Assembly: GCF_000016525.1 (NCBI RefSeq)
Contig: NC_009515.1
Span: forward strand, 770,501-834,500
From: Methanobrevibacter smithii ATCC 35061
Lineage (GTDB): Archaea > Methanobacteriota > Methanobacteria > Methanobacteriales > Methanobacteriaceae
Reading direction: 5' to 3'
Length of the DNA: 64,000 nt
The notes under the pieces were generated by a model, which ran no database searches, was not told where the DNA came from, and was given only the letters and a program-made list of their open reading frames with translations. The position numbers and the translations under genes are program-made. Positions within the stretch are counted from its first letter, which is position 1. Every line of letters starts with the position of its first letter. Shown here in pieces: positions 7,877 through 15,204 of the stretch.

Positions 7877-8383
7877 ATGAAAAGTGAAACAACCGAAAAA
7901 CATAAAAAATTATCATCTACTGATATTACCTGTGGTGTAATAACATTAAGTGACAGCATCACTACAAATGAAGATGATTTATCCGGACAATATCTTGCAG
8001 ATGAAACATCAAAAAGATACACCTTAAAATCCAAAATAATAATACCTGATGACAGGGAAGCATTAATTAAGACTATTAAAGAAATGGTTGATGAAGATAT
8101 TGATGTTATCTTAACAACCGGAGGAACAGGACTAGACAGTAGAGATATAACTGTTGAAACTGTAGAAGAACTTTTTGATAAAAAAATTGAAGGCTTCGGT
8201 GAAATTTTCAGACATCAGTCTTTTTTAGAAATCGGTTCAGGAGCGCTTATTTCAAGAGCAACAGCAGGAGTATATAAAAAAACAGTGATTTTTTCAATGC
8301 CTGGCTCACCTAATGCAGTTAAAACAGCATCCAACATCATAATAGATGAATTTCCCCATCTAGTATTCCATGCAAAAAAATAA
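7877..8383 (+). CDS. moaB: MoaB/MogA-type molybdopterin protein
   Basis: A 168-residue MoaB/MogA family protein, which in archaea adenylylates molybdopterin on the way to the molybdenum or tungsten cofactor. The MPT-binding motif LTTGGTGLDSRDIT is at about residues 77-90 and the second motif FSMPGSPNAVKTA near residue 141. A strong AAGGGGAT lies before the ATG. It is 17 bases after the small regulator gene and closes the operon, ending in a hairpin terminator. In methanogens the main client of this cofactor is formylmethanofuran dehydrogenase, so the regulators upstream may adjust this first step of methanogenesis to metal supply (inference). Confidence 0.87.
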   Translation: MKSETTEKHKKLSSTDITCGVITLSDSITTNEDDLSGQYLADETSKRYTLKSKIIIPDDREALIKTIKEMVDEDIDVILTTGGTGLDSRDITVETVEELFDKKIEGFGEIFRHQSFLEIGSGALISRATAGVYKKTVIFSMPGSPNAVKTASNIIIDEFPHLVFHAKK

Positions 8384-8427: not shown

Positions 8428-8952
8428 TTAGAAAAATTCGTCAACAGTTATTAAAGGTTCTAATTTAACACCTTCACTATCAAAAGCTTCAATAGCTCCT
8501 TCCTGCCTATCAACAACAACAAAAGCTCTTTTTACACTACCTCCATTGTCTTGAATAGCTTTAATAGCTTTAAGTAATGATCCTCCAGTAGTTGTAACAT
8601 CTTCTACAACAATGACATCATCACCTTCGTTTAATTCACCTTCAATAAGTTTGGAAGTCCCATAACCTTTTTTCTCTTTTCTAATCATTAACAAAGGAAT
8701 TTCAGATTCGAGAGAAACTGCAGTAGCTATTGGAACCGCCCCAAGTGCAGGACCTGCTACTTTATCAATATTATCTTCACTAATAGATTTTGTGATTAGT
8801 TTAGCTATTGTTGACAGGATTTCAGGATCAGTAATAGCCTTTTTCATGTTTATGTAATAATCACTTTTTTTACCGGAAGATAATGTAAAGTCCCCTTTTA
8901 AGAAAACACCATTTTCTTTTAATAAATTAATTAAATATTCTTTAGTAATCAT
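8428..8952 (-). CDS. pyrE: Orotate phosphoribosyltransferase
   Basis: A 174-residue PyrE that joins orotate and PRPP to give orotidine 5'-phosphate in pyrimidine synthesis. The PRPP-binding motif [16 protein letters not shown] is at about residues 115-130, and the segments [14 protein letters not shown] (about residue 24) and [15 protein letters not shown] (about residue 92) are characteristic of the family. Length is normal. It begins 15 bases after a small PRC-barrel gene in the same direction and ends at the shared terminator with moaB. Confidence 0.92.
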
Positions 8953-9269: not shown

Positions 9270-11918
9270 TTATTTGCTATCTAAAATACAAATACTTTCA
9301 TCATTTTGCATGTCATGATAAAATTCAAGCTTATTTTCATTGAATTCAAAAATTTTAACCATATCATACAATTCCTTATCAAATTCCGGAATAAATTCAC
9401 ATAATTTATTTGGATAATCTTTAAATAAATTTTTATTAAACTCTAACCTGTTGCTATTTTCAAAAATAGCTCCATAATATATATCCGTTTCAACTAAATC
9501 CTGGAACATATGACTTCCAAATGACAATTCAGGAACATAGCCAACTTTACTGTAGGACTCTTCCAGAATAGCGGAAAATTTACTAATGTCTGCAAATACT
9601 ACTGGAATTCCAAGTTCTGGTGAAGAAGTGCCTAACCTGCCTGGAACAATCAGCATAGCTTCTTTGTCATGATTTCTACAGTAAGCATTAATAGCGCTGA
9701 TTAATTTAGCTAATGAAGCTTTTTTAGTAAATGGATATTCATAATACTTATGAGGATCAACATAAACTAAAATATCAAAGTTCTGTTTTCTTGACCTTCC
9801 CATTGAAGAATTCTTAATATGGAAAAATACTTCCCCATTACCTTTAGGAATTTCAACAGCCTCTTTAGTAGTTGCAACCTGCAGAGGCCTGCACTGCAAC
9901 AGATTAATAACAAAAGAACCTTCAGGACCTACATTTACAGTATATTCAATGTCAACAGGATAGTCATAAGCTGCCTCTAAAGTTTGAAGCAATTCCTTCA
10001 TCAATGATGTAAATTTATCATTGTTAACTAAACCGTTACAATTTACAAAGGTTACCTCTCTTCTTTGACCCCTTTCACGAAATCTGCGCTCTGCATCAGT
10101 GTCATGTTCAACTACTGCCCTTTTTGCATAAATTGGAACTACCTCAATACCTTCATCAACAGAAATTTCACTTACTTTAATATTTTTTAAATCCAAAACA
10201 TCCAAATAATGCTGAGAATGTTTATGCCTCTCAACAACACTTGGAACTTCCATAGCTTTCGGTTTATCCAAATTAACAATACGGGGATAATCTCTTTGAG
10301 TCCTATCTACCGCTTTTGTACCTAAACCCATGACTAATCTTAACATTCCCCCATTATGTCCCATATCAGGCAATGGAGAATATGGACTATACGAAAATCC
10401 AACTCCTGCTGCAGAAGGGAAGAAATAATCCTGATAATAAGATCCTGACACTCTCTGAACAAGTAAAGACATTTGTTCATCGTTATCATCCAAATCATTT
10501 AAGCTCCTATACTCTAAAGCAGATATATTCATTGTACTTGCATATACTGTTTTAACAGCTTCTTCAAAAGCTTCCAACCGTTCTTCAATAGACCCTCTAT
10601 TAACACAGAAAACAGACTCATATTTTCCGGCAAATGCATTCCCAAAACCGTCTTCTAAAAAACTACTTGATCTTACAATAATCGGACTTTGACCGAAATA
10701 ATCCAGAAGCCTTCTAAACTTCTCACGAATATCATCAGAAAAAGTACCGTTTTTCAAACCTTCCTCAAGTTCTTTTCCAGCCTCGTAATAACCTTCTTTA
10801 GTTCTTTGCTTTACCCGAATATCCCACAAATCATTTGAAACAATATATGTATAAAACAAATCAGAACATATGTAAAATGAATCATCAGGTTCAAAATCAG
10901 CATAGATATCCGGACGGTCATGTTCTATGATTTTACGTGAAAGCAGCATACCGCAGGCTTTACCTCCAATCATACCACTTCCAACAACACGATTATAAAC
11001 TGAAAAATAGTCTTCAGGTGCAAAATATTCTTTAACTTTCTGAATCATGTTTTTATCTTTAGTCATGAGCATTCTGCACATTAAATCGCATTTATCAGAA
11101 ATATCCTCATTATTTTCATGCTGTAACTTGGTCAATTCAAAGAATCTTTCCCAACTATCTGTGTTTTGCTCATTATGATAATCAGCAACCCTGTTAACAA
11201 CCTTATAAAAATTACTTACTTCCAAACCGTCAGTCAATGTTGTTAAAATTCCTTTTTTAGTTTCATATTTATGACCTAAAAACATATTCTGAGAATATCT
11301 GTTCCATACTTTCAGAGGATGCACATACACATCATCCCTATGAGAGTACAAATCTAAAAAAAGCTGTGTTGTTTCACGAATTTTAGCTATCGCTTCAAAA
11401 GAATGCTTACCTCTAATAATCGGGAAATAAGCTACAGTATCAAGAGAAAATAAATAAGGGCATGTTACTCTAAAGAAATTTCCCATCATCAAATCGGTAG
11501 ACCATGCAGCCTGTAAATCAGACAAACAGTCAAATACATAAAAAGCATCCCTACCCTCTTTTGTAATGATGTTATGAACTTCCAAAGTAAAAGGTTCAAA
11601 CTGCTTGTTCGGGTCCACATGATAAATTTTAATTCCGTCACGTTCAATCATTGCAAAGTCAGTTTCAGAATTATTCTTTTCAACCTCCAACTTTAAAAAA
11701 TCATCAGCAGTCATGTCTATTAATGGCTCATGCTGACCAAAATTTATGTAAATCAGGTTTTTATTATCTTCCTGAGCTTGTTTAACAAAAGGCTTCACAA
11801 AATATAAAAATTCATCTAAATTAGAAACTTGCCATACTACATTATCTCCTAAACGAATATTATCTAAGGTTTCGTCTAGCTGCGGAATACCGGATTTTAT
11901 TCTTTCGAAAGCAACCAT
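9270..11918 (-). CDS. PEP/pyruvate-binding ATP-grasp protein with degenerate KaiC-like N-terminus
   Basis: An 882-residue protein. The first ~200 residues begin FERIKSGIPQLDETLDNIRL-GDNVVWQV, which resembles the opening of a KaiC/RecA-type ATPase, but the expected P-loop GxxxxGKT is absent, so that domain is probably inactive. From about residue 310 a pyruvate-phosphate-dikinase/PEP-synthase ATP-grasp domain follows (MIGGKACGMLL, IIVRSSSFLEDGFGNAFAGK, and INLLQCRPLQ at its end). The phosphohistidine swivel domain and PEP barrel of true PEP synthase are missing, so it cannot catalyse the full reaction alone. An AGGAG box eight bases before the ATG at 11918 sets the start. It may phosphorylate a partner protein (inference). 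Confidence 0.75.
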   Translation of the reverse strand: MVAFERIKSGIPQLDETLDNIRLGDNVVWQVSNLDEFLYFVKPFVKQAQEDNKNLIYINFGQHEPLIDMTADDFLKLEVEKNNSETDFAMIERDGIKIYHVDPNKQFEPFTLEVHNIITKEGRDAFYVFDCLSDLQAAWSTDLMMGNFFRVTCPYLFSLDTVAYFPIIRGKHSFEAIAKIRETTQLFLDLYSHRDDVYVHPLKVWNRYSQNMFLGHKYETKKGILTTLTDGLEVSNFYKVVNRVADYHNEQNTDSWERFFELTKLQHENNEDISDKCDLMCRMLMTKDKNMIQKVKEYFAPEDYFSVYNRVVGSGMIGGKACGMLLSRKIIEHDRPDIYADFEPDDSFYICSDLFYTYIVSNDLWDIRVKQRTKEGYYEAGKELEEGLKNGTFSDDIREKFRRLLDYFGQSPIIVRSSSFLEDGFGNAFAGKYESVFCVNRGSIEERLEAFEEAVKTVYASTMNISALEYRSLNDLDDNDEQMSLLVQRVSGSYYQDYFFPSAAGVGFSYSPYSPLPDMGHNGGMLRLVMGLGTKAVDRTQRDYPRIVNLDKPKAMEVPSVVERHKHSQHYLDVLDLKNIKVSEISVDEGIEVVPIYAKRAVVEHDTDAERRFRERGQRREVTFVNCNGLVNNDKFTSLMKELLQTLEAAYDYPVDIEYTVNVGPEGSFVINLLQCRPLQVATTKEAVEIPKGNGEVFFHIKNSSMGRSRKQNFDILVYVDPHKYYEYPFTKKASLAKLISAINAYCRNHDKEAMLIVPGRLGTSSPELGIPVVFADISKFSAILEESYSKVGYVPELSFGSHMFQDLVETDIYYGAIFENSNRLEFNKNLFKDYPNKLCEFIPEFDKELYDMVKIFEFNENKLEFYHDMQNDESICILDSK

Positions 11919-12009
11919 ATTAAAAACTCCTAAGAACATTCAATTTTTCAGCTAAATTTTAACATCAGTTATATATATGTTCAAAGAAGTATTAAAATAT
12001 TGAAGATTT

Positions 12010-12507: not shown

Positions 12508-13530
12508 TTAACTTAAAAATTTATTAATCCAAAACTCTAAAAGCTTCTGAATACAATAATCCTTGCAGTTATTTTCTAAAATAGAAGCAGCTAAGTTATA
12601 AGCTACTTTTTTATCCAATAAATCATTTTCAACTTCATCAATTAAATGTAAAATTGAAGTGGTTAATGCTACATTTTCCTGTTTTCTTGCAGCTTCCTGT
12701 AATGATTTTATAAATTCTTCCTTATCGTCACCAATATTACTATAAAACTCATTAATATCCAAATCATATCTTCTTAAACGAGCTAAAACACTGCATTGAG
12801 ATTCTTTTGTAATCCATACCTGTCTTTTAATAGCTTCACTTATTGATTCAATAACACATTTAGCTATCAATTCACCAAGTTTCGAATGTTTTCCTGCATT
12901 GGATAATCTGTTTTTGGATTCCATATTTGAAAAAATAGCTATTCCGTCAGTTCCTGTTCCTGTTGCAAATCCATTTGAAAACTGACTGGGAATTCTTAAA
13001 TTGTTTAAAGCTACAGTTTTTGCTTCAGTAGCAGTTACTAATCCATTAGCTAATGTTCCTGGTTCTAACGAAACATTAGTTAAAACAATTATATTGATTG
13101 TTCCAACATCAAAGTGAAACTCTCCATTTTCCTCATAATAGCTTGCACTGTCTCCTGCTCTTGAGGCATTTACTCTTACACCTGCAGTAGTTATTGCACT
13201 GACTTCAAGATTTTTATAATGTTTTGTAACAACACATGCATTTTCCATCTGGGCGGAAGTTAAAAGACCTGTTGTAAAATCAGAATCAATTCCTAAAATT
13301 TCGCTTTGCCTAAGCAGATAATCATTTATGCTATGGTTTTCTAAAAAATCAATGTTTTCCTGAGATAAATAATGGTTGAAAGCTGTTTTAAAATCTTTTT
13401 TGTAGCCGCCATTTAAATCAGACGTTGAAATTCCATTCCTGCAAACTCCAAACTCAACCACTATAGAGTTTTCACAGATATATGCTCTGTCTCCAGTTGA
13501 ATTTTTAAAAATAAGTCGTTTAGCTTGCAA
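12508..13530 (-). CDS. cbiZ: Adenosylcobinamide amidohydrolase
   Basis: A 340-residue CbiZ, which cleaves adenosylcobinamide to adenosylcobyric acid so that salvaged corrinoids enter archaeal cobamide synthesis. The conserved core is TTAGVRVNASRAGDSASYYE near residue 114, VTATEAKTVALNNL near residue 165 and GFATGTGTDGIAIFS near residue 186. The C-terminal ~110 residues are less conserved and mostly helical. The start is a TTG at 13530: it has AAGGT seven bases upstream, and the first in-frame ATG comes only after 90 residues of conserved sequence. The thermosome terminator lies directly in front. Cobamides serve the methyltransferase Mtr in this kind of organism; cbiD is found at 23811-24896. 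Confidence 0.85.
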   Translation of the reverse strand: MQAKRLIFKNSTGDRAYICENSIVVEFGVCRNGISTSDLNGGYKKDFKTAFNHYLSQENIDFLENHSINDYLLRQSEILGIDSDFTTGLLTSAQMENACVVTKHYKNLEVSAITTAGVRVNASRAGDSASYYEENGEFHFDVGTINIIVLTNVSLEPGTLANGLVTATEAKTVALNNLRIPSQFSNGFATGTGTDGIAIFSNMESKNRLSNAGKHSKLGELIAKCVIESISEAIKRQVWITKESQCSVLARLRRYDLDINEFYSNIGDDKEEFIKSLQEAARKQENVALTTSILHLIDEVENDLLDKKVAYNLAASILENNCKDYCIQKLLEFWINKFLS

Positions 13531-13584: not shown

Positions 13585-15204
13585 TTACATCATTGGAGGC
13601 ATACCGCCCATAGCAGCAGGATCCATACCGCCCATGTCAGCATCACCTTTACCGCTAGATGCGATTACGTCATCAATTCTTAAAATCATTTCAGCTGCTT
13701 CAGAAGCAGATTGGATAGCTTGTTTTTTGACACGTTTAGGTTCAATTACACCAGCTTCTTTCATGTCTGCTACTTTACCGGTAAATACATCTAATCCCAT
13801 TACAGCACTGTTTTCATGAGCAGCTCTTAAATCTACTAATGAATCTATACTGTCTAAACCTGCATTTTCAGCTAAGGTTTTAGGAACAATTTCTAAAGCT
13901 TCTGCAAATGCATTTACAGCTAATTGTTCTCTTCCACTGATTGAATCAGCATAGTCTTTGAGTTTTTTAGCCATTGCAATTTCAGGAGCTCCTCCACCAG
14001 CTACAACTTTGTCATCTTCAACAGTAGCTGCTACAACACCAATTGCGTCTTCAATAGCTCTTACGATTTCATCAACAATGTGTTTGGTACTTCCTCTTAC
14101 GAATAAGGTTACAGATTTAGCTACACTGCATTCTTCTACAAAGATCATTTCTTCGCCAGATACTTTTCTTTCTTCTACAATACCTGCTTCACCTAAATCG
14201 TCAGCAGTTAAGTCTTCTAAGTTAGTTACTACATTAGCACCAGTAGCTCTAGCTAATTTTTCAATATCTGATTTTTTAACCCTTCTTACAGCTAAAATAC
14301 CTGCTTTAGATAAGTAATGTTGTGCTAAATCGTCAATACCTTTTTGTGCGAATAATACATTAGCACCGGATTCAGCTACTTTATCTACCATGTCTTTAAC
14401 CATTTTTTCTTCTTGTTCAATGAAAGCTTGCATTTGAGCAGGGTCAGTTATTCTGATTTCTGCATCAACTTCAGTTTCTTTTACTTCAAGAGGAGAGTTA
14501 ACTAATGCGATTTTTGCATCTTTAACTTCAGAAGGCATACCTGGGTGTACTCTTTCTTTGTCAACAATTACTCCTTCAACTAAAGTAGAGTCTTCTACAA
14601 CAGCACCGTCTTTTTTCTCAATTTTAATATTATCAGTGTCTACTGCACCGTCTTCAGCTACTTTTTGAACTGCATCTACGATTAATTTTGCTAATGGTTC
14701 ACGTGCTGCTTCAGTTCCTTTACCAGTCATAGCAGTCATAGCTACTTTAATTAAAGTTTCTTCATCAACTGAATCGATTGCAATATCATCTAAGATTTCT
14801 TGTGCTTTTTCAGCTGCTTGTCTGTATCCCATTGCAATGATTGTTGGGTGAATATCTTGATCTAATAAAGATTCGGATTTTTTCAATAATTCTCCAGCAA
14901 TGATTACTGCAGTAGTAGTTCCATCTCCAACTTCGTCTTCTTGAGTTTTAGCTACTTCCACTAACATTTTAGCTGCAGGATGTTCGATATCCATTTCTTT
15001 TAAGATTGTAACACCGTCATTGGTTACAACGATATCTCCAAGTCCGTCCACTAACATTTTGTCCATTCCTTTTGGACCTAATGTGGTTCTTACGGTTTCA
15101 GCAAGTACTTTTCCTGCTAAAATATTGTTTCTTTGAGCATCTCTTCCGACAGACCTGTTTGTTCCTTCAGGTAAAATAAAAATTGGTTGTCCACCTTGTG
15201 CCAT
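13585..15204 (-). CDS. ths: Thermosome subunit (group II chaperonin)
   Basis: A 539-residue group II chaperonin subunit that folds proteins in an ATP-driven double ring in the cytoplasm. Typical motifs are [14 protein letters not shown] near residue 39, [19 protein letters not shown] near residue 61, [16 protein letters not shown] near residue 90 and [16 protein letters not shown] near residue 405; the C-terminal tail is [15 protein letters not shown], as usual for thermosomes. A GTG at 15213 is in frame, but the ATG at 15204 follows AAAGGTGAT and matches the family N-terminus ([14 protein letters not shown]). It is divergent from the cyclase-family gene and ends in a hairpin terminator. Confidence 0.95.

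Follow-up and report, generated by a model that had tools for sequence, protein, structure and literature searches.

The gene at 9270-11918 (minus strand) of a 64,000-nucleotide stretch of the Methanobrevibacter smithii ATCC 35061 genome (NC_009515.1, positions 770,501 to 834,500; the whole stretch is called the window here) encodes a conserved, previously uncharacterised protein that is a variant among the phosphotransferases derived from pyruvate phosphate dikinase (PPDK). It consists of a KaiC-like domain that has lost its P-loop, an ATP-grasp domain of the PPDK/phosphoenolpyruvate (PEP)-synthase type with its catalytic residues intact, and a C-terminal domain with an invariant histidine, H810; among genomes of the phylum the gene often adjoins a glutamate synthase gene and co-occurs with it. 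By analogy with a mycobacterial kinase, we tentatively propose that the protein may be an autophosphorylating dikinase-type regulator of ammonium assimilation. Residues are numbered from the ATG at 11939, and the gene is divided as follows:

9270-11918, minus strand: whole gene, 882 amino acids (aa), likely start ATG at 11918
11220-11918, minus strand: pseudo-KaiC (RecA-fold) domain without P-loop, residues 8-240, from two predicted models and conservation
11802-11831, minus strand: lost P-loop site, residues 37-46 (QVSNLDEFLY), which we take, from the KaiC motif and its register, to correspond to the glycine-rich loop of KaiC
11013-11219, minus strand: helical linker, residues 241-309, poorly conserved, from model and conservation
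9870-11012, minus strand: PPDK/PEP-synthase-type ATP-grasp domain, residues 310-690, from Pfam, model and kept residues
9405-9842, minus strand: C-terminal domain, residues 700-845, seemingly superposed on the swivel of PEP synthase and rifampin phosphotransferase in the model, no Pfam match, from the model and local profile alignments
9510-9512, minus strand: H810, at a helix start within G-[ST]-H-x-F-Q, candidate phosphohistidine, from alignment and model

An ATP-grasp domain with conserved catalytic residues

Pfam PPDK_N matched residues 323-698 over nearly the full profile (E 2.5e-44, profile positions 3-321 of 328), in agreement with the first-pass annotation of this DNA, which had read a PEP-synthase ATP-grasp domain here; a weak DUF7067 match was the only other one in the protein at E<=1. 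Comparison of the ATP-grasp domain with that of PpsA gave an hhalign probability of 97%, and residues of about 260-690 of the predicted model matched the ATP-grasp domains of rifampin phosphotransferase (RPH) and HpeI in VIA-align. Conservation was followed in 96 distinct members among 110 open reading frames (ORFs). These ORFs had been selected through a PGR motif in the C-terminal domain, which fixes this motif and the domain's presence beforehand but leaves H810 and the ATP-grasp positions free to vary. K327, R423, E429, D430, E665, Q682 and R684 were kept in all 96, and D663 in 92, the four Bacteroidota-type members having Glu instead. The tested Lys, two Arg, Glu, Asp and Gln have catalytic roles in PPDK. 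Because these positions are conserved, catalysis is favoured over ATP sensing, one of two roles suggested earlier for the protein, and the domain is very likely catalytic; a sensor, if there is any, would more likely be the N-terminal pseudo-KaiC domain.

The protein is not an end-to-end relative of PEP synthase, since the three best NCBIfam PEP-synthase models scored 46-52 bits against cut-offs of 598-883. The canonical PpsA, near 948 kb, contains the genome's only matches to the PEP/pyruvate barrel (PEP-utilizers_C) and to the swivel family PF00391 (PEP-utilizers), one each; the protein described here matched neither. The absence of a barrel and of a recognised swivel, as annotated before, thus stands at the level of these families, but a C-terminal domain that looks swivel-like in the model had been overlooked.

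A predicted KaiC-like fold without its P-loop

The full-length AlphaFold model was built from 55 rows (mean predicted local distance difference test score 85.5, predicted template modelling score 0.86), namely the window protein and 54 of 80 related loci; L043, which holds X, the truncated L067, near-duplicates and unchosen loci were left out. In a second predicted model the N-terminal domain was folded alone, and both models were compared with known structures by VIA-align. In the whole model, residues 8-243 matched KaiC (8dba; Z 20.5, root-mean-square deviation (rmsd) 2.9, 207 residues) and residues 12-238 matched FlaH (4yds; Z 18.1); the domain alone gave Z 19.1 for KaiC and 18.5 for FlaH, and the KaiC rows as a whole lay at Z of about 17-20 over about 190-215 residues. 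The models thus show a RecA fold, and the result that would have refuted the earlier annotation, its absence from the first 200 residues, did not occur. The Walker A P-loop GxxxxGK[ST] was found in none of the 92 KaiC-type members (L067 being truncated there), consistently with the earlier description of a KaiC/RecA opening that lacks this loop. Profile searches with 15 N-terminal domains found no KaiC/RecA Pfam family at E<=5, and no KaiC chain was among the PDB matches of the N-terminal profile at E<=1; the KaiC likeness of the predicted N-terminus is visible only by fold comparison.

When the window protein was compared with 40 bacterial rows, mean identity was highest in the pseudo-KaiC domain (64.6%), followed by the ATP-grasp domain (57.4%), the C-terminal domain (49.3%), the linker (35.9%) and the tail (24.2%). 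Since the dead nucleotide site sits in the most conserved domain, this suggests that the pseudo-KaiC domain has kept a role that does not consist in hydrolysing ATP.

The C-terminal domain and H810

Residues 700-845 make up a conserved domain of their own, which also occurs in Bacteroidota proteins with a different N-terminus. All 96 distinct members keep H810, and across 13 rows that include two from Bacteroidota it was the sole invariant His of the domain; in the model a helix begins at this residue, after a loop and before a strand. The phosphohistidine of swivels likewise opens a helix between a loop and a strand.

In VIA-align, PEP synthase (2ols) was matched by the model from 288 to 888 against chain positions 13 to 467 (368 residues, rmsd 5.0), and the RPH mutant 5hv3 by the model from 259 to 836 against chain positions -4 to 866 (374 residues, rmsd 3.9), with a further RPH mutant, 5hv2, at 369 aligned residues. 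Chains with an ATP-grasp domain only aligned fewer residues (276 for 5hv6, 289 for 9goj), as did RPH 5hv1 (296). The surplus of roughly 75-100 aligned residues in 2ols, 5hv2 and 5hv3 would most simply lie in their swivel. Local profile alignments to PEP synthase also extended roughly 12 residues beyond the ATP-grasp domain, into the start of the swivel (SSMG/ASPG).

Several results weigh against this assignment. VIA-align prints end points only and the 2ols fit is loose, at the rmsd given above; the program also warned that parts outside 6-250 were barely tested in the whole-model run. The row of RPH 5hv1 does not reach into the swivel, and that of RPH 5fbs (model 310 to 819 against 9 to 734, 267 residues) ends before it. 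When the C-terminal domain alone was compared with PpsA and enzyme I swivels by hhalign, using 78 members retained by filters for short motifs, the probability was 3%, against 0.2% and 0.1% for the pseudo-KaiC and PpsA barrel controls, and the 11 aligned columns fell elsewhere, SPELGIP facing SRELGIP. In runs of ATP-grasp plus C-terminus against PpsA, made with 57 of 79 rows (22 methanogen rows were lost to a motif filter), the global alignment placed ELGIP on ELGIP and left the PpsA His facing a gap, not H810. The C-terminal profile found only three weak, unrelated PDB chains at E<=10, and the sequence around H810, S-x-G-[ST]-H-x-F-Q, does not show the swivel signature T/SxxGGxxxH (PMC12167813). 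On balance, we consider it somewhat more likely than not that the C-terminal domain is homologous to the swivel.

Distribution and gene context

Of 151 genomes from the phylum, 84 carry the gene (47 of 91 good genomes), and a collection of genomes yielded at least 587 related stretches, of which the best 80 (34 archaeal, 46 bacterial) were used; the 46 bacterial stretches among these came mostly from Lachnospiraceae and other Clostridia, with one from Coriobacteriaceae. In a midpoint-rooted tree of 44 of the 96 sequences (5 of 41 inner branches drawn open), the methanogens formed a fully supported clade placed among Bacillota branches, and the Bacillota rows needed two changes; two methanogen relatives, 45% and 44% identical and belonging to other genera within the window's family, lay outside this clade. 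The position of the methanogen clade under this rooting suggests gene transfer between gut bacteria and gut methanogens.

The gene lay directly 3' of glxB, on the same strand and with a gap of 5-152 bases, in 54 of the 84 genomes that have it; glxB, a glutamate synthase gene named from sequence, was within 9 kb in three more, elsewhere in 24, and not found in three (split matches of genome G036 were merged in this tally, and G117, G057 and G101 stand as fragments). In all 14 loci where glxB directly precedes the gene and the flank extends for at least 4.6 kb, the order was the same, with genes that we take to be glnA, an amidotransferase gene, glxC, a FrhB-like gene and glxB, followed by the gene itself. 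glxB was found in 81 of 84 genomes with the gene and in 46 of 67 without it (p 3e-6), and among good genomes in 47 of 47 and 37 of 44, respectively (p 0.005), neither p value being corrected for relatedness. Within the window's genus, glxB was lacking in eight of nine genomes without the gene and in two of 58 with it. This context points to ammonium assimilation.

In relatives of the Bacteroidota type, receiver-type domains (REC) stand at the N-terminus in place of the pseudo-KaiC domain. The relative at locus L115 is 27% identical to the window protein over residues 310-822, and its N-terminus matched Response_reg at E 2.2e-6 with 28.2 bits, just below the curated 30.2; a Parabacteroides relative is annotated as 'PEP/pyruvate-binding domain-containing protein'. 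A glutamate dehydrogenase (GDH) gene, gdhA, was adjacent and divergent in three of six such loci (L115, L148/L160 and L149, the last with a 34-residue gdhA fragment at the contig end). That two phyla share the core, both beside ammonium-assimilating enzymes and different ones, is the strongest argument for the nitrogen reading.

This reading has to be set against the 24 genomes with glxB elsewhere, among them the window's own, where the relative at 349 kb (a PF01645 match, 71% identical to the query from locus L066) is far from the gene at 780 kb. Judged by their identity to the window protein (about 66-72%), most of the 54 adjacent cases seem to belong to a single clade, which leaves few independent events. 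Among the 46 bacterial loci, two of which had no called gene and many of which had short flanks, the partners shared by more than about five loci were limited to ABC ATPases (in 12) and shadow ORFs of the gene; one locus had a glxB-like match, another a weak glnA-like match, and four shared a gene presumably encoding NAD synthetase. The flanks covered at the Bacteroidota-type loci L116/L159, L117 and L161 showed no gdhA. We judge a role in nitrogen assimilation somewhat more likely than not.

Some further observations concern the Bacteroidota form. By eye, the first 330 aa of the L115 and L116 proteins hold two receiver-like segments, the first seemingly without the phospho-acceptor Asp and the second seemingly with one. 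The REC-type gene sits between two gdhA paralogues at L115 (2208-3542 and 10166-11500) and L160 (8511-9845 and 17148-18479). A search of viral contigs found no relative of the Bacteroidota form; three phage-collection records from faeces (MT835811, MT835667 and MT839982, unverified 'Bacteriophage sp.') carry the Bacteroidota REC-PPDK gene, one of them also with a gdhA fragment, and are probably pieces of bacterial chromosome.

Proposed mechanism and alternative explanations

In the proposed mechanism, the ATP-grasp domain (310-690) would phosphorylate H810 of a strongly diverged C-terminal swivel (700-845). The pseudo-KaiC domain, having no P-loop for ATP, would be an input or docking module, for which receiver-type domains would substitute in Bacteroidota, and the phosphorylated protein would control ammonium assimilation by phosphotransfer or binding, its most likely targets being glutamine synthetase or glutamate synthase, and GDH in Bacteroidota. 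The path from ATP through H810 to an acceptor in nitrogen assimilation is proposed by analogy with VadK, described below. We lean slightly towards regulation rather than small-molecule chemistry.

In structure the core most closely resembles RPH and HpeI, themselves small-molecule dikinases, and the relay might instead phosphorylate a metabolite that binds to the pseudo-KaiC domain, just as RPH phosphorylates rifampin, in which case the nitrogen-gene neighbourhood would reflect that metabolite, for example a glutamine-linked one. The high conservation of the N-terminal domain would be expected of a substrate site, but the model has no substrate-binding domain between ATP-grasp and C-terminus, and the swap of the N-terminal module for receiver-type domains fits an input better than a substrate site; we regard this explanation as rather unlikely. 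Phosphorylation of a separate swivel or carrier protein, the other role suggested by the first-pass annotation, would parallel HpeI with HpeH, and such split systems are reported (PMC12167813); the window protein's own C-terminal domain is, moreover, no recognised swivel. The sole PF00391 match of the genome is, however, the one inside PpsA, which leaves no unattached swivel protein, and a C-terminal domain with an invariant His, possibly the protein's own swivel, is fused to the ATP-grasp domain in all 96 members (chosen by that domain's motif), so that a separate carrier seems improbable.

Hardly more probable is a non-catalytic ATP or energy sensor or scaffold, whose ATP-grasp domain would bind ATP while the pseudo-KaiC domain docks partners. 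KaiC proteins often form hexamers, which would suit such a role, as would the lost P-loop; the tested catalytic positions and H810 are, however, fixed in archaeal, Bacillota and Bacteroidota-type members, which would not be usual in a protein that only binds ATP. The PPDK_N match would also agree with a divergent PEP synthase or PPDK still able to make PEP, but given the missing barrel, the PpsA elsewhere in the genome and PEP-synthase models far under their cut-offs, we consider this highly improbable. The domain reading of the first-pass annotation has thus held, and the protein is not a PEP synthase; the separate-carrier role is unsupported, and the conservation of the ATP-grasp catalytic positions makes the ATP sensor the less likely of sensing and catalysis.

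As the best NCBIfam models, although far below cut-off, are PEP synthases, the protein risks being misread as part of central carbon metabolism. If the proposed regulator is real, gut methanogens, Lachnospiraceae and, in another form, Bacteroidota would have a regulator of nitrogen assimilation in common, and the known signalling devices would gain a phosphohistidine relay of the PEP-synthase type that includes a dead KaiC domain. A widespread and so far overlooked phosphohistidine signalling family of gut archaea and bacteria, with a cryptic swivel, interchangeable inputs and control of ammonium assimilation in place of PII/GlnE or the nitrogen phosphotransferase system, is conceivable but doubtful.

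Relation to known systems

The closest analogue is VadK (Rv1127c), a mycobacterial PPDK-derived histidine kinase that autophosphorylates a His, has no PEP domain and interacts with methylcitrate-cycle enzymes (PMC13400623; preprint PMC12636432). The two proteins share an ATP-grasp domain and, in the window protein putatively, a phospho-His domain without PEP domain, and VadK's contact with metabolic enzymes is the likeness that bears on function. VadK has a PPDK-type His domain and no N-terminal module, whereas the pseudo-KaiC domain, the putative hidden swivel-like C-terminus and the nitrogen context are the window protein's own. Both REC-PPDK fusions, in Bacteroides and also in Heimdallarchaeota, and archaeal inactivated KaiC (iKaiC) proteins are already mentioned in print, each on its own (PMC5847659). 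In our comparison, which covered the Bacteroidota proteins, REC-PPDK proteins share the ATP-grasp and C-terminal domains and differ in their receiver-type N-terminus, and KaiC and iKaiC proteins share the predicted KaiC fold and, for iKaiC, the inactivated nucleotide site, but not the fusion to a dikinase core.

RPH and the two-component HpeHI, which is split over two proteins (PMC4844700, PMC12167813), have an ATP-grasp domain of the same superfamily and are the best structural matches of the core; unlike the window protein, they have a substrate domain and a canonical swivel. Desulfovibrio DVU0246 has a PPDK domain paired with a receiver gene, but with a recognised mobile domain (PMC4001038). 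In the literature covered, which did not extend to the 2017 mBio survey of KaiC hubs, we found no description of a pseudo-KaiC-dikinase fusion or of a link to glutamate synthase.

PpsA shares the ATP-grasp domain, and its type of swivel seems to be overlaid by the window protein's C-terminus in the model; the window protein lacks the PEP barrel and has the additional pseudo-KaiC domain. Among 120 genomes searched with PpsA, 16 (G001-G005, G137 and G141-G150) hold a second place that matches swivel and barrel only, in frames of 415-487 aa (PpsA query 328-758, 38-46% identity; for example G150:C1:790182-791399). By sequence, these frames are PEP synthase without ATP-grasp, and none of the 16 genomes is among those carrying the pseudo-KaiC gene. 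Five frames of 893-944 aa in G137-G141 match the ATP-grasp part of PpsA alone (query 6-321, 40-42% identity) and are, on the same grounds, another PPDK_N protein.

Gene boundaries and flanking sequence

The M. smithii genome is one contig of 1,853,160 bases and 99.9% complete. The ORF can be extended upstream to a first ATG at 11939 (9270-11939, 889 aa), but the start MxAF(E/D)R is conserved among relatives and residue 8 corresponds to position 11918, the right end annotated before, which is thus the conserved start of a minus-strand gene (no strand had been named). Together with the AGGAG listed below, the conserved MxAF start makes 9270-11918 the likely true extent of the gene; the plus-strand reading of this interval has 45 stops. 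A TATA-box-like TATATATAA suggests that the gene may have its own archaeal promoter.

11927-11931, minus strand: AGGAG, likely ribosome-binding site, 8 nt 5' of the ATG at 11918
11969-11977, minus strand: TATA-box-like TATATATAA upstream of the gene, read from sequence

An NrpR-like operator was considered and dropped: for GGAA-N6-TTCC, which we take to be the NrpR-like motif, the window has 37 matches at <=1 mismatch against 26 expected, and 3 of 100 shuffles reach 37; the sole exact match, at 9821, lies within the gene's coding sequence, and the gap 11940-12009 has none. A sigma-70-type promoter scan was set aside as uninformative because the host is archaeal, and a PHROGs search gave no meaningful match.

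The gene has a GC content of 0.334, and its GC at third codon positions (0.246) is the top of eight genes compared (others 0.154-0.232), which is a weak sign at most. Other genes nearby are, as we would name them from sequence, pyrE at 8428, mogA at 7877 and a thermosome gene at 13585. The upstream neighbours in the same direction encode, by Pfam, a GNAT acetyltransferase and a CbiZ amidohydrolase; the latter (12508-13530, minus strand, 340 aa) has about 110 extra C-terminal residues past its Pfam domain (31-229).

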